From assembly GCA_028713245.1 (NCBI GenBank), contig JAQTOQ010000002.1, forward strand, positions 1 to 52,064: a stretch of DNA of 52,064 nucleotides, in the 5' to 3' direction. The notes beneath the pieces are model-generated. The model was not told the origin of the DNA. It made no database searches and saw only the letters and a list, made by a program, of their open reading frames with translations. Of the stretch, positions 23,961 through 34,183 are shown in pieces; position 1 is the stretch's first letter; every line of letters starts with the position of its first letter. Origin of the DNA: Sulfuricurvum sp. Lineage in GTDB: Bacteria; Campylobacterota; Campylobacteria; Campylobacterales; Sulfurimonadaceae. A program made the translations under genes and the position numbers.

Positions 23961-25028
23961 TTAAATTACGATGGGCATAACAATGGTTTTGAAATTTCCT
24001 TCTTTGATTACAAAAGGTTGATTGGATTCATTGGCTTCTAGGGTAAATTCTGTACCATTAATTTGTCCTAGGAAATCAAGAATATATCGGCTGTTGATTG
24101 CCAAGATAAATGGAAAATCAAATCCGTTTTCGATTTCAACGGCTGTTTTTGCTTCGATGTTGTCATCACTTAAACTTTCAAACAAAATAGAATCATTTTG
24201 AAAGGTCAATTTTAGATCATTTGAAATAGTAGTAATTTGCTTGATGGCAGTGATAATCGCAGCTTTTGGCAATGTTATCGTACGTGAGGCTTCTTTTGGG
24301 ATGATACGGGTGTAATCGGGAAATTTACCATTGATGAGTTTGGTAAAAAATAGGGAATCTTCTGATTTAATAATCAAATGGGTATTGTCATAATAAATTT
24401 CTATATTGTTTGAAAATAGTTTTTGTATCTCTATTATTGCTTTTTTAGGAACGATAATAGAAAGTTCATGATCGTTTTGACTATCGATGTGTACTAATGC
24501 TAAACGTCGTGTATCGGTGGATACAAAATTAATTTGATTGTTTTTGATATCTATTAATGCACCGTTGAGTTCAAACTTGGGATTGTTGGTATCTGTAGCC
24601 GGAGTTATTTTTTTCAAGGATTCTATTAATATTTGGGAATTAATTTCAATTTTTGGTTTTTCATCGGTAATTGGAAAGGCTGGAAATTCAGAGCTTTTAA
24701 ACGTTGGTAATTTAAAATTAGAACGTTTTTGACGTATATGAAGATTTTCTTTTATAAGTTCAATTTCTATTTCTTCATCTTTTAAGATACGAATAATGTC
24801 CAATAACTTTTTACCGCTTGCTGTTACGGAACCTGGTTCTATTACGGTGAGTGAATTGGTTTGTATGGTTAAACCGATTTCATAATCAGTGGCTTTTGCA
24901 CTAAGTGTTCTACCATCGGTAGATAATAGAATATGAGAGGTTATTTGGGAAGTATCTTTTTTTTCTAAGAACGGTTGGAGATGGAGTAAAATGTTTTCTA
25001 AAATGGACTTATCAATGGTTATTTTCAT
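23961..25028 (-). CDS. dnaN: DNA polymerase III subunit beta
   Basis: Sliding-clamp family sequence (MKITIDKSILENILLHLQPFLEKKDTSQITSHILL...TIVMPIVI) located between gyrB and dnaA. Confidence 0.97.
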   Translation of the reverse strand: MKITIDKSILENILLHLQPFLEKKDTSQITSHILLSTDGRTLSAKATDYEIGLTIQTNSLTVIEPGSVTASGKKLLDIIRILKDEEIEIELIKENLHIRQKRSNFKLPTFKSSEFPAFPITDEKPKIEINSQILIESLKKITPATDTNNPKFELNGALIDIKNNQINFVSTDTRRLALVHIDSQNDHELSIIVPKKAIIEIQKLFSNNIEIYYDNTHLIIKSEDSLFFTKLINGKFPDYTRIIPKEASRTITLPKAAIITAIKQITTISNDLKLTFQNDSILFESLSDDNIEAKTAVEIENGFDFPFILAINSRYILDFLGQINGTEFTLEANESNQPFVIKEGNFKTIVMPIVI

Positions 25029-25222: not shown

Positions 25223-26554
25223 TTATTCAGAGGTCATTGTTGAAATTTTATTGGAGAGTTCATCTATTTTTACTTTGAAATCTTCGTCATTTTTTATGAG
25301 TTCATTTATTTTTTTCATGGTATGACTAACGGCGGTATGATCTTTCATTCCAAAATACTGTGCAAGTTGAGGCATGGAATTAGGAGTAAGATTTCGGGAG
25401 AGATAGATAGCAATACGACGTGCATAGACAATATTACTGTTACGGCTTTTTGAACGCATTTCACTCATTTTCACATTGAGTTCTTTGGAAACGATTTCCA
25501 TAATAAGATCGGTCGTAATATTGTTGCGTTTTTCAGCCATTTGCTCTTTTAAAACGTTACGGGCAAATTCTATGTTTACATCCACACCCATGAGCTGAGA
25601 ATATGCATTGAGTTTTGAGAGTATTCCCTCAATTTCTCTGGTGTTATTTTCAATAATGGTCGCGACATAGTTAATAACTTCTTTATCCAGTTTAACACGA
25701 TTGATTTCACATTTTTTCTTGATGATCTCAATTTTTGTTTCGAGTTCAGGAGGCTGAATGTCCGCTACTAAACCCCACTCAAAACGACTTTTCAATCGTT
25801 CTTCTAATCCGGCTATTTTTTTTGGGTGTTTGTCCGAAGTGATAATTATTTGTTTATTTTCATTACGTAGCGCTTCAAAAGTATGAAAAAATTCTTCTTG
25901 AATTTGATTTTTATTGCTTAAAAATTGTATATCATCGATTAGAAGCAAATCGCATTTACGATATTTGTCTTTAAACCTGTCCATCGTACGATTACTGAGG
26001 TGTCGGCTAAAATCGTTAAGAAACTGTTCAACAGAGGTATAGATAACGGTTTTGCCTTGTGCGAGCATCACATTCCCCACGGCTTGCATCAAATGTGTTT
26101 TACCTAATCCGACGCCACCATAGATAAAAAGAGGGTTATATACAATTCCCGGTTTTTCACTGACGCTCTTAGCCGCTACATAGGCAAAGTTATTAGAACC
26201 GCCAACGACAAAATTGTCAAAGGTATAAGAGGGATTTAATAGAGCAATAGGAGTTTTATCACTATGGGTTTGTATGGCAGGAGTTGATTGTTGAGCGGAT
26301 GTTGCACTTTGTGATTTTACTAAAATGGATACAGAAGGTTTTATCCCGGTTTTTATTTCAAAAAGATGTGAAATTTTATCGGCGTATTTGGTTCGTATCC
26401 AATTTGCAATTAAAAGATTCGGAGCATTGTAAACCGCAAGATTACTTTTTGATTCTTCTTCATTATAAGAAAGCTGTTTAATATAGCGTGTATAATCAAT
26501 TTCATTTATTTCATTTTTGAGCATTTGTATGACCATGCTGCCGATGTTATTCAT
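25223..26554 (-). CDS. dnaA: Chromosomal replication initiator DnaA
   Basis: NPLFIYGGVGLGKTHLMQAVGN, LLLIDDIQFLSNK, C-terminal DNA-binding FGMKDHTAVSHTMKKI. MNNIGSMV is the likely start, not the ORF-track start at 26596. Confidence 0.98.
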   Translation of the reverse strand: MNNIGSMVIQMLKNEINEIDYTRYIKQLSYNEEESKSNLAVYNAPNLLIANWIRTKYADKISHLFEIKTGIKPSVSILVKSQSATSAQQSTPAIQTHSDKTPIALLNPSYTFDNFVVGGSNNFAYVAAKSVSEKPGIVYNPLFIYGGVGLGKTHLMQAVGNVMLAQGKTVIYTSVEQFLNDFSRHLSNRTMDRFKDKYRKCDLLLIDDIQFLSNKNQIQEEFFHTFEALRNENKQIIITSDKHPKKIAGLEERLKSRFEWGLVADIQPPELETKIEIIKKKCEINRVKLDKEVINYVATIIENNTREIEGILSKLNAYSQLMGVDVNIEFARNVLKEQMAEKRNNITTDLIMEIVSKELNVKMSEMRSKSRNSNIVYARRIAIYLSRNLTPNSMPQLAQYFGMKDHTAVSHTMKKINELIKNDEDFKVKIDELSNKISTMTSE

Positions 26555-26570
26555 TTTTTCTCCAAAACCA

Positions 26571-26657
26571 TGTGAATAGTATTGGTAATAATACACTTTT
26601 TTCCCTATAATTGGGGATATATTTGATGTGAATAAGTATTTAGTACTATGTGAATGG
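26571..26657. other. Candidate oriC1 DnaA-box cluster (dnaA/ruvC intergenic)
   Basis: TGTGAATAG at 26571, TGTGAATAA at 26627, TGTGAATGG at 26649, all in the same orientation, the last two 22 bp apart. Confidence 0.65.
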
Positions 26658-29394: not shown

Positions 29395-30306
29395 TTATAT
29401 TTTCATCGCTTCATGACACGTAGTAATAAAGTCTTCTTTGGAGACAACATGGTAGTCTTCTCCTCGATAGCTAAACTCAAGAGAGTTTGCGTGTAGCAAC
29501 AATCGTGTTGCCCCTCCCATTTCCAGCCTCTCTTGCGGAGTTAAAACTTTGTCTAAAAATCTTCGAATATCGTTTTCTTCCTGTCCGTAAATAGGATCGC
29601 CAACAATGGGATGTTTCACGTGAAACAAATGAACACGGATTTGATGTGTTCGACCGGTGAAGGGGGATGCTTCAACAAGCGTCATATCAAATTCAGGAAA
29701 GTATTCGATTGGCTTGATAAAGGTACGAGATGCTTTACCATCAGGATGAACTTTTACTACCATACGTACAAGTGTATCGGTATCTTCACGGCGCAAAAGA
29801 GGTTCTTGTATGTCCATGTCATCTTTTAGGTGACCATGGACCATTGCTAAATAGCGTTTGGTTATTTGGCGATTTTCAAATAATAATTTTAAAACAGTTT
29901 CGCTCTCTTTGTTACGAGAAGCTAGCACAAGGCCGCTAGTTTCTTGGTCAATTCTATGGGCTATATTAGCATCTGAACCAAACTCGTGTTTTATTTCATC
30001 GCTGAGAGAATAAGGAGTTTTACGACTTTGTGGATGAACTAACACCCCACTTGGTTTGTCGTAAATTGCAAAGTCAGGTTCTACAAATATTGCAGTTAGT
30101 CCTTGGGAGCGTGGCTCGAAGATAAGAAAATCAAAGTCACCCTCAATGTATCCAGCTTGATTGCTCATAACAATTCCATTTTGTGTTAGCCTACCTTTGG
30201 CAAGCAGGCGCTGTGATTCAGCATGAGAAAGACCAAGCTCTCGGATTAAAAAAATAAAAGCTTTTTCACGGACAGGGGCGTGGAGTTTTTTTGTAACGAA
30301 GGGCAC
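29395..30306 (-). CDS. RluD-family 23S rRNA/tRNA pseudouridine synthase
   Basis: S4-like N-terminus; VHPQSRKTPYSLSDEI...IAHRIDQETSGLVLASRNKE; GRTHQIRVHLFHVKHPIVGDPIYG. Confidence 0.93.
   Translation of the reverse strand: MPFVTKKLHAPVREKAFIFLIRELGLSHAESQRLLAKGRLTQNGIVMSNQAGYIEGDFDFLIFEPRSQGLTAIFVEPDFAIYDKPSGVLVHPQSRKTPYSLSDEIKHEFGSDANIAHRIDQETSGLVLASRNKESETVLKLLFENRQITKRYLAMVHGHLKDDMDIQEPLLRREDTDTLVRMVVKVHPDGKASRTFIKPIEYFPEFDMTLVEASPFTGRTHQIRVHLFHVKHPIVGDPIYGQEENDIRRFLDKVLTPQERLEMGGATRLLLHANSLEFSYRGEDYHVVSKEDFITTCHEAMKI
29612..29627. promoter_or_regulatory. parS: parS centromere site (ParB/Spo0J binding)
   Basis: TGTTTCACGTGAAACA, an exact 16-bp match to the bacterial parS consensus, about 3 kb from the dnaA/ruvC junction. 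Confidence 0.92.
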
Positions 30307-30399: not shown

Positions 30400-31728
30400 A
30401 TGGTTGAACGTTACGCACGAGAAGAGATGAAATCAAAATGGACAATGCAGGCAAAATATCAAGCATGGTTGGATGTTGAGATAGCAGCAGTAAAAGCATG
30501 GAGTCGTTTGGGGCTCATTCCAACTGAAGATGCCGATAAAATTGTGAAAAATGCAAGTTTTAACATTGATCGTATTGATGAGATTGAGGCGGTAACGAGA
30601 CATGACCTCATTGCTTTTACGACATCGGTATCAGAATCGTTAGGTGAAGAGAGCCGATGGTTCCATTATGGTATGACTTCATCCGATACGGTTGATACCG
30701 CGGTTGCGCTACAGATGCGCGATTCGCTGAGCCTAATCATTGAAGATGTTAAGATGGTTATGGAGTCTATCAAGGTCAGAGCGATAGAGCACAAGATGAC
30801 GTTAATGGTTGGGCGCTCGCATGGTATTCATGGTGAACCTATTACGTTTGGATTGGTGTTAGCAGTATGGTATGACGAAATGGCACGTCATCTTACAAAC
30901 CTAGAGCAAACGATGGACGTTATTGCTGTGGGTCAAGTATCAGGAGCGATGGGAAATTTTGCTCACGCACCCTTAGAGCTTGAAGAATACGCGTGTGAAG
31001 CGTTAGGACTAAAAGCGGCTCCTGCATCCAATCAAGTCATACAGCGTGATCGTTATGCACAGCTTGCAAGTGCGTTAGCGCTTATGGCAAGCTCAATCGA
31101 AAAGTTTGCGGTACAAATCCGTCACTGGCAGCGCACCGAAGTGTATGAATGTGAAGAATATTTTTCTGTAGGACAAAAGGGTTCATCAGCCATGCCACAT
31201 AAGCGTAATCCAATCCTAACAGAAAATATCACAGGGTTAGCACGTATGGTACGATCGTATGTTATACCTGCAATGGAAAACGTCGCGTTATGGCATGAGC
31301 GTGATATCTCTCACAGCTCAACTGAACGCTTTTGGCTTCCAGACTCTTTTATCACTTCGGATTTTATGCTAAACCGTTTTAATGATGTTATTGCCAAGCT
31401 CGTTGTCTATCCCCAGAATATGATGCGCAATCTCAATCTAACAGGTGGTTTGGTTTTCTCTCAACGCGTATTGCTAGAGCTTCCACTCAAAGGAGTGAGT
31501 CGTGAAGACGCGTATCGTATCGTACAGCGCAATGCGATGAAAGTGTGGGAAGGATTGCAGCAGGGTAAAAGTGCTACCAACGAAAAAGGAGAAAGCCTTT
31601 ATTTGCAATATCTATTGGATGATGAAGAGTTGAGAAAAAGCTTGAGCGAAGAAGCAATACGCGAATGTTTCAATTTTGACTACTACACCAAAAATGTGGA
31701 TAATATTTTCAACCGAGTGTTTAAATAA
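30400..31728 (+). CDS. purB: Adenylosuccinate lyase
   Basis: MVERYAREEMKSKWTMQAKYQAWLDVE; signature GSSAMPHKRNP. Confidence 0.97.
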   Translation: MVERYAREEMKSKWTMQAKYQAWLDVEIAAVKAWSRLGLIPTEDADKIVKNASFNIDRIDEIEAVTRHDLIAFTTSVSESLGEESRWFHYGMTSSDTVDTAVALQMRDSLSLIIEDVKMVMESIKVRAIEHKMTLMVGRSHGIHGEPITFGLVLAVWYDEMARHLTNLEQTMDVIAVGQVSGAMGNFAHAPLELEEYACEALGLKAAPASNQVIQRDRYAQLASALALMASSIEKFAVQIRHWQRTEVYECEEYFSVGQKGSSAMPHKRNPILTENITGLARMVRSYVIPAMENVALWHERDISHSSTERFWLPDSFITSDFMLNRFNDVIAKLVVYPQNMMRNLNLTGGLVFSQRVLLELPLKGVSREDAYRIVQRNAMKVWEGLQQGKSATNEKGESLYLQYLLDDEELRKSLSEEAIRECFNFDYYTKNVDNIFNRVFK

Positions 31729-31816: not shown

Positions 31817-34183
31817 ATGTTGACAATACTAAAACGAAATGGCCGACGAGAGCCGTTAGATATTACTAAAATACAAAAATATACTTCTGCAGCGGTAAAA
31901 GATCTGATCAATGTATCTCAGAGTGAACTTGAGGTTGATGCACAGATTCAATTTCGTGATGGTATTACAAGCAATGAAATTCAGCACACGCTAATCAAAA
32001 CAGCCGTAGATAAGATTGATATTGATAGTCCGAATTGGACCTTTGTGGCGTCACGCCTTTTTCTCTATGATTTGTATCACCGCGTTAACGGATTCACGGG
32101 TTATGGGACATTGCAACAGTATTTTGAACGATGCGAGGGTGAGGGGCGTATTCTTTTAGGATTGCGCGAGAAATACAACCTAGCAGAGCTAGATGCTTAC
32201 ATCGTTGCGGATCGTGATCTGCAGTTCAATTACTTGGGCGTTAAAACACTTTATGATCGTTATTTAATCAAAGATCGCAATGGTGACCCGATAGAACTTC
32301 CACAGCACATGTTTATGGCCATCGCCATGTTCTTGGCGCAAAATGAATCTGATGCGATGGGATGGACCAAAAAGTTTTACGACATGCTCTCAAAATTTGA
32401 AGTGATGTTAGCAACGCCAACACTCTCAAATGCACGCACAACGCGTCATCAGCTTAGCTCTTGTTACATCGGCTCTAGCCCTGATAACATCGAAGGGATT
32501 TTTGATGGTTATAAAGAGATGGCATTGCTCTCTAAGTTTGGCGGCGGAATCGGTTGGGATTGGACGAGAGTACGCGCTATGGGATCGTTTATCGATGGTC
32601 ACAAAAATGCAGCGGGTGGAACTGTTCCTTTTTTGAAAATTACCAATGACATTGCAATTGCGGTAGATCAGCTAGGGACACGCAAGGGTGCTATTGCTGT
32701 TTATTTGGAGCCATGGCACATGGATATCAAGGATTTCTTGGACATCAAGAAGAACTCTGGGGAAGAGCGTCGCCGTGCGCACGATTTGTTTCCGGCACTT
32801 TGGATAAACGACATGTTTATGAAGCGTGTTGTGGATGATGGTATCTGGACGATGTTTGATCCATTTGACGTCCAAGAATTGACAGAGCTGTATGGTGATG
32901 CGTTTGAAAAGCGTTACCTAGAGCTAGAGCAAGACACTAGTATTGTCAAAGAGCACACTAAGGCAAAAGATCTTTGGAAAAAGATATTGACGAGTTATTT
33001 TGAATCAGGAAGCCCGTTCTTATGCTTCAAAGACAGCGCCAATCGCGCTAATCCAAATGATCATTACGGCATCATCCGTAGCTCGAACTTGTGCACAGAG
33101 ATTTTCCAAAACACTCAGCCAAATCATTATCTCATCAAGATCAAATACGAAGACGGAACATTTGTCACTTATGAAGAAGACGAAATCGTCAAAGTTGACA
33201 GCGGAATAGAAAAGCCGGCGAACAAAGTGACCGCATTAGATTCTCTTGGCGGACGTCCTGTTTACATTGTTGAAAAAGAAAAAGTAGACGGAGCAACAGC
33301 CGTTTGTAATTTGGGTTCGGTTAACTTGTCTCGCATTCATACCAAAGAAGACATTGATCGTATCGTTCCCGTTGCTATTCGTGCGCTGGATAATGTTATC
33401 GATTTGAACTTTTATCCACTGGAAAAAGTAAAGCGCACTAACATGCGTAGCCGTGCGATTGGCTTGGGTGTTATGGGTGAAGCAGAGATGCTTGCGGGTC
33501 TGAAAATCGTTTGGGGAAGTCAAGCGCATTTTGACAAAATCGATGAGATAATGGAAGCCGTTAGCTATAACGCCATCAAAGCATCCTCGGATTTGGCGGT
33601 TGAAAAAGGATCGTATGCCGAGTATGTTGGCTCAAAATGGAATCGCGGAATCCTCCCTATGGATCACGCGACGGCGGAAGTGCAGAATCTTATTGATCGT
33701 GGTGGATTGTTTGCCCCTAAATACGAATGGGACGTTCTACGTGAAACAATTAAGACACAGGGGATGCGTAACGGCTATTTGATGGCAATCGCCCCTACGA
33801 GCTCTATATCGATCCTCACAGGCACTACGCAGACGATTGAGCCTATCTATAAGCGCAAATGGTTTGAGGAGAATCTCTCTGGCCTTATTCCGGTGGTTGC
33901 ACCGAATCTCAATCCAGATACCTGGGGATATTATACTCCTGCGTACGATTTGGATCAAACAATTTTGGTCAAAGCTGCCGCCATACGTCAAAAATGGATC
34001 GATCAGGGACAAAGCCTTAATATCTTTATCACCCTGGATAAAGCGAGCGGTAAGTATCTCAATGACATCTACATGCTCGCATGGAAGTTAGGCCTCAAAT
34101 CCACGTATTACCTACGATCACAATCGCCTGAAGCTGTTGCTCAGACACAAGACCGATCGATGGAGTGTGATGGGTGTCAGTAA
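31817..34183 (+). CDS. nrdA: Ribonucleoside-diphosphate reductase alpha subunit (class I)
   Basis: N-terminal ATP-cone; LATPTLSNARTTRHQLSSCYIG; SNLCTEI; MAIAPTSSISILTGTTQTIEPIYKR; C-terminal CDGC. Confidence 0.97.
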   Translation: MLTILKRNGRREPLDITKIQKYTSAAVKDLINVSQSELEVDAQIQFRDGITSNEIQHTLIKTAVDKIDIDSPNWTFVASRLFLYDLYHRVNGFTGYGTLQQYFERCEGEGRILLGLREKYNLAELDAYIVADRDLQFNYLGVKTLYDRYLIKDRNGDPIELPQHMFMAIAMFLAQNESDAMGWTKKFYDMLSKFEVMLATPTLSNARTTRHQLSSCYIGSSPDNIEGIFDGYKEMALLSKFGGGIGWDWTRVRAMGSFIDGHKNAAGGTVPFLKITNDIAIAVDQLGTRKGAIAVYLEPWHMDIKDFLDIKKNSGEERRRAHDLFPALWINDMFMKRVVDDGIWTMFDPFDVQELTELYGDAFEKRYLELEQDTSIVKEHTKAKDLWKKILTSYFESGSPFLCFKDSANRANPNDHYGIIRSSNLCTEIFQNTQPNHYLIKIKYEDGTFVTYEEDEIVKVDSGIEKPANKVTALDSLGGRPVYIVEKEKVDGATAVCNLGSVNLSRIHTKEDIDRIVPVAIRALDNVIDLNFYPLEKVKRTNMRSRAIGLGVMGEAEMLAGLKIVWGSQAHFDKIDEIMEAVSYNAIKASSDLAVEKGSYAEYVGSKWNRGILPMDHATAEVQNLIDRGGLFAPKYEWDVLRETIKTQGMRNGYLMAIAPTSSISILTGTTQTIEPIYKRKWFEENLSGLIPVVAPNLNPDTWGYYTPAYDLDQTILVKAAAIRQKWIDQGQSLNIFITLDKASGKYLNDIYMLAWKLGLKSTYYLRSQSPEAVAQTQDRSMECDGCQ

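Follow-up and report, generated by a model that had tools for sequence, protein, structure and literature searches.

A parS-type palindrome held in the codons of an RluA-family pseudouridine synthase gene near dnaA in Sulfuricurvum

A parS palindrome inside an origin-proximal gene

The window analysed here, a stretch of 52,064 nucleotides at the start of a contig from Sulfuricurvum sp., carries a perfect 16-bp palindrome, TGTTTCACGTGAAACA, within the coding sequence of an RluA-family pseudouridine synthase. The locus contains the following features, among which the identities of dnaA, dnaN and the purB-like and nrdA-like neighbours are ones that we assume from family knowledge:

23961..25028, minus strand: dnaN (ORF list)
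25223..26596, minus strand: dnaA (ORF list; GC-skew switch near 24 kb)
29395..30306, minus strand: RluA-family pseudouridine synthase gene, host of parS (PF00849; catalytic motif HRIDQETSG intact)
29612..29627, no strand assigned: parS, perfect 16-bp palindrome (exact match; position kept in relatives)
30400..31728, plus strand: purB-like gene, neighbour of the host gene (ORF list; conserved in relatives whose ORF lists were inspected)
31817..34183, plus strand: nrdA-like gene, ribonucleotide reductase large subunit, next neighbour (ORF list; conserved likewise)

An earlier note, made from the sequence alone, had described this palindrome as the only full parS site of the window, about 3 kb from dnaA. 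Its coordinates are exact, the 16-mer is perfect, the window holds no second full copy, and the measured distance from the dnaA start (26596) is 3.0 kb. Because dnaA lies this close and the GC skew switches sign at about 24 kb, the site is origin-proximal, as chromosomal parS sites are, and it fits that class exactly as a 16-bp palindrome of the TGTTNCACGTGNAACA type. The sole other match in the window at three or fewer mismatches, at 33733 (three mismatches), is no more than chance would give, a mean of 0.38 such matches being expected.

A genome-wide scan found TGTTTCACGTGAAACA as a single exact copy in the assembly (1.83 Mb in 206 contigs, 89% complete, so that a second parS may be absent from it and have been missed). 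One site with a single mismatch, TGTTTCACGGGAAACA at C177:2402, lies within an 84-amino-acid reading frame unlike a gene, and we judged it to be a chance match. That the palindrome is a minor or vestigial site, the strain's main centromere lying in the unassembled 11%, is a reading to which the two or three sites found within a few kilobases in many relatives lend some colour. We consider it very unlikely, given that no second site occurs in the window, which extends about 26 kb and 25 kb to either side of the dnaA start, and that three genomes of the same genus (G021, G028 and G003; 99–100% complete) have a single parS, the one in this gene.

The host protein has 303 amino acids. Read on the minus strand, the site and its flanks are CAT TTG TTT CAC GTG AAA CAT CC, or H-LFHVKH-P, in which the six parS codons TTG TTT CAC GTG AAA CAT encode Leu-Phe-His-Val-Lys-His. 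The earlier note had called the enzyme RluD-type, of which the family assignment stands and the specific name does not. The protein scores 101.6 bits against PF00849 (gathering score 26.8) and carries the HRxD motif in HRIDQETSG, but falls under each of the curated cut-offs of RluD, RluC, RluA and TruC, reaching 92.8 bits against 351 for the RluD equivalog NF008385 (23S rRNA 1911/1915/1917) and 165.8 against 192.7 for TIGR00005. RluA-family pseudouridine synthase is therefore the safe name for the product. The Escherichia coli enzymes RluD, RluC and RluA (1v9f, 1xpi and 2i82) share the PF00849 fold, the HRxD motif and the aligned motif MAHITHPLVGDP / LFHVKHPIVGDP with it and, unlike it, are without parS at the corresponding position.

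The cognate ParB and the spread of the site through the order

The earlier note held that a genome without parB would refute a centromere. Both parB and parA are present, adjacent to each other on contig C196, away from the contig that bears parS. The ParB has the domains PF02195 and HTH PF17762, and its nearest solved homologue is the Helicobacter pylori Spo0J/ParB–parS complex (4umk). The residues with which H. pylori ParB contacts parS, Arg159, Asn164, Lys190, Arg215 and Glu218 (PMC11229316), are all identical in the alignment to 4umk (R158, N163, K189, R214 and E217), and the equivalents of R173 and G201 (Caulobacter numbering), which are absolutely conserved in parS-binding ParB (PMC7383237), are retained. 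The same genome thus encodes a cognate ParB with parS-specific contact residues. Where Noc has the specificity residues Q/K/K/R, this protein has R, T, Q and G instead (alignment to 6t1f), so that the palindrome does not qualify as a Noc-binding site. The site used in a study of H. pylori ParB, TGTTCCACGTGAAACA (PMC11229316), is one of the variants seen at the same codon position in relatives.

To describe the distribution of the site we defined an exact parS class, TGTTYCAYRTGRAACA, with the reversed pattern as control. The exact class occurs in 0–5 copies per genome across 399 genomes of the order and the control in none of the 399, so the occurrence of the class is not due to chance. Among 60 relatives the coincidence of parS and synthase gene recurs repeatedly. 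The site occupies the same six codons in every one of the 37 same-genus genomes whose gene is full-length (G033, whose gene is cut by a contig end, is outside this count). In the family, 46 genomes were sampled and 43 have it, of which 39 match the strict pattern and four have Ser or Thr for the following Pro. The palindrome is thus retained in close relatives, where its absence from an unchanged protein sequence, according to the earlier note, would have been a refutation. The host-gene pattern is matched by about 144 of the 399 genomes of the order, an approximate figure in that several genomes show the pattern again in an adjacent gene and the matches in G132 and G136, which we excluded as host-gene sites, lie in other genes. 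Reading of individual loci confirmed host-gene sites in nine families (f1, f4, f6, f7, f10, f11, f18, f20 and f22). At least 30 genomes have no exact-class parS other than the host-gene site. Its distance from dnaA, worked out for 22 relatives whose contigs are complete or long, is 4–99 kb. At three loci (L175:8554, L176:8261 and L141:5868) a one-mismatch parS stands near the start of the synthase gene, reading K-F-H-V-K-H-K in L175; it is possibly a second site, nascent or decaying.

ParB was found in 71 of 72 tested genomes that have the host-gene site, the exception, G167, being a 360-contig assembly. Both ParB and exact-class parS were absent from all five sampled f23 genomes (G075, G089, G102, G115 and G128) and from G056 and G059, and the whole family f23 may segregate its chromosomes without ParABS. 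This co-absence is illustrative only, since the zero-site genomes were chosen for lacking sites and fifteen ParB-bearing genomes are also without exact-class parS; other variants of the site must therefore exist.

Genomes of the same genus include 17 in which the synthase gene is tandemly duplicated, the copies about 920 bp apart, with parS in both:

L030–L032, L036, L041, L058–L063, L065–L070, L166–L173 and L185: tandem-duplicate loci (same genus)

The copies of the 13 measured pairs share 56–65% amino-acid identity, and each retains the catalytic motif and parS. The duplication therefore doubles the proposed centromere, and both sites have been held by selection. G014, G017, G030 and G385 have two exact-class sites, one per tandem gene copy. 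The first copy in G004 (L169) looks frame-broken and bears parS; we rejected it as a case of the site outliving the protein, since the apparent break is a stretch of N in the assembled sequence and no mutation.

Because the third frame contains TGA, parS is readable in only two of three frames, as [LMV]FHVK[HQ] or as xVSRET, and both are used in this order. A second host of parS is a nucleosidase-like gene (PF01048) that in most loci lies about 2 kb from the synthase gene. The site is read there as V-S-[RHCY]-E-T, in which the third letter goes with the middle of the palindrome: R with CACGTG, H with CACATG, C with CATGTG and Y with CATATG. In many genomes this site accompanies the one in the synthase gene. 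The sites in the alternative frame are:

L175:5731, L181:5570, L182:5855, L137:8650, L144:3345, L148:3638 and L151:3076: parS in the nucleosidase-like gene
L182:4548 and L183:10142: VSRET-frame parS in an nth-like gene
L012 and L096: VSRET-frame parS in a gene that we take, from family knowledge, to be kpsF-like
L014: VSRET-frame parS in a presumably panB-like gene, named on the same basis

Like the synthase site, those in the nucleosidase (MqnB/MTA-nucleosidase-like), nth, kpsF-like and panB-like genes are intragenic and, in the families examined, origin-linked; they differ from it in gene and in reading frame. Together with the synthase gene, these hosts suggest that parS shifts between a small number of origin-region genes.

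Constraint on codons and on residues

The fetched loci yielded 144 distinct orthologues or tandem copies, of which 122 have [LM]FH[VM][KE]H. As the 122 were chosen on residues, their first and second codon positions are conserved partly by construction and their third positions are free. Measured against the rest of the same genes, codon choice in the site is extreme: GTG for Val in 119 of 120 (17.6% in the background), AAA for Lys in 109 of 109 (75.6%), TTG or CTG for Leu in 115 of 115 (31%), GAA for Glu in 13 of 13 (54%) and CAC for the central His in 103 of 122 (28%). Change counts on a gene tree built leaving out the parS codons agree. The Val column has undergone one synonymous change, as against 44 and 47 in other Val columns and 33–60 in fourfold columns overall; the Lys column has undergone none (13–34 in comparable columns), the Leu column six (43–62) and the last His column one (5–27). 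The 16-nt segment as a whole shows 29 changes against a median of 327, and the next-lowest non-overlapping segment shows 154. The changes fall at base 5 (10), base 12 (8), base 8 (8) and base 9 (2), and, bar one change at base 11, the variable bases are the symmetric degenerate positions. Such a pattern points to purifying selection on the DNA sequence, as in a chromosomal parS. The alignment of homologues that the earlier note had proposed hence finds both codons and residues constrained, with the codons of the 122 orthologues frozen far beyond the protein.

The codons flanking the site (29610–29630) are also unusually frozen: the preceding His codon, CAT, has undergone five third-base changes, and the last His is CAT in 121 of 122. 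This suggests that a few bases beyond the 16-mer may also matter.

TTC at the Phe codon is associated with GAA at the Lys/Glu codon (Fisher's test, p = 6.7e-7), and on the tree GAA was gained four times on 56 TTC branches against once on 164 TTT branches. With just four gains against one, the joint change of the two codons is suggestive only.

Could the enzyme itself require F-H-V-K-H, the palindrome being a by-product of protein conservation? The residues are indeed conserved over many genera, beside the conserved GRTHQIRVH...HPIVGDP, but this proposal is already contradicted by the synonymous sites, which are frozen at parS alone. Moreover, K and E interchange at the supposedly protein-constrained position, and outgroup as well as several ingroup enzymes without FHVKH keep an intact catalytic motif. 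We give the proposal almost no credence.

Synonymous conservation by itself names no binder, and the palindrome might instead be bound by another factor, such as a Noc-type nucleoid occlusion protein or a transcription factor, or, since it could fold as a hairpin, act as an RNA element of the enzyme's mRNA. Both versions strike us as extremely unlikely. The sequence is identical to parS, the genome's ParB, with R and G as specificity residues, is of the parS type, and the same motif recurs near the origin in other frames, other genes and intergenic DNA; as for a hairpin, the degenerate C/T–A/G changes disrupt it no less often than they preserve it (23 TTC-AAA rows).

The earlier note had also held that FHVKH is unlike the usual sequence of RluD homologues. 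It is unusual beside outgroups and normal within this order. In a set of 60 RluA-family proteins drawn from other phyla, 39 have Gly and 8 have Lys at the Lys position, and Ala or Ser predominates at the Phe position, where the listed counts include no Phe; the scan that gave this set was dominated by the general TGR[QT]HQIR motif and holds few close relatives. Orthologues of the order that lack parS mostly read LAHIGH, LSHIGH, LNHIGH, LHSIGH, LYSIGH and similar.

Lineages in which the site has moved are instructive. In two close relatives, at L129 (LLHVNH) and L131 (LLHVNY), parS lies in intergenic DNA just 3′ of the gene, with Phe replaced by Leu and Lys by Asn, and L128 and L184 are in an intermediate state, having both intragenic and 3′ sites. 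The proposal that the centromere constrains codons and residues of a conserved enzyme is borne out in that both are constrained, and a comparison of these sequences suggests that the residues drift where the palindrome leaves. G381 (L275:1626), a single-genome case, is the sole orthologue that keeps FHVKH with a broken palindrome, through the synonymous change GTG to GTA; ParB was not detected in its assembly (99% complete). G322 and G399, two members of the same genus, encode ParB and show no break in the palindrome.

A proposed centromere in two codes, and its relation to known systems

We propose that the palindrome, which lies in two overlapping codes within the synthase gene, serves this chromosome as the centromere at which ParB loads, and put the probability of this reading at about 0.93. 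ParB, whose gene adjoins parA on a different contig, would load at parS as a CTP clamp and spread across origin-proximal DNA, and ParA, probably together with SMC, would then move the origin region. The site would have been kept at the same six codons through most of the family's diversification and through parts of eight other families. As for the direction of causation, we infer that it runs from DNA to protein: selection for ParB recognition would fix the synonymous choices xTG-TTY-CAY-GTG-RAA-CAT and would likewise impose [LM]-F-H-V-[KE]-H where xHIGH/xSIGH is otherwise usual. Where parS is relocated or ParB lost, first the codons and then the residues would be expected to drift freely.

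A broader version, which we neither favour nor discount, is that the centromere has resided in these six codons since an early ancestor of much of the order, overriding the protein's preference ([LM]FHV[KE]H over xHIGH/xSIGH, with K-to-E reversals tracking the palindrome's partner arm), and that one branch's tandem duplication was kept at least partly for doubling the centromere.

On the proposed reading, the locus offers a clean natural example of a single DNA segment that carries two codes, in which an essential-type cis element sets codons and amino acids of an unrelated enzyme. The FHVKH/FHVEH and VSRET peptides would serve as readable protein signatures of intragenic centromeres, and lineages with a moved site, a lost ParB or a duplicated gene are ready-made tests. 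Relatives whose sole exact-class parS is the one in this gene would have a very simple chromosome-segregation system, in which changing a handful of bases at silent positions should inactivate the centromere and leave the protein unchanged.

In a literature search of incomplete coverage we found no description of a centromere that keeps to fixed codons of a single enzyme throughout a clade and leaves an imprint on its residues. The site resembles the parS of chromosomal ParABS systems (Bacillus subtilis Spo0J, H. pylori Spo0J, Caulobacter and Pseudomonas) in being the same 16-bp palindrome, in its proximity to the origin and in the DNA-contact residues of its ParB. ParABS chromosomes are usually multi-site, whereas here one site, or two in tandem gene copies, keeps to a single codon position in one enzyme clade-wide. 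Pseudomonas aeruginosa has ten parS per chromosome, nine of them in coding sequences, where they were mutated without change to the protein (PMC4368675). In the text searched, those intragenic sites come with no residue imprint or order-wide fixed residence (PMC4368675), whereas here codons and residues are both set. A parS within a gene is nothing new in itself; its depth, its near-exclusivity and the mark that it leaves on the enzyme appear to be.
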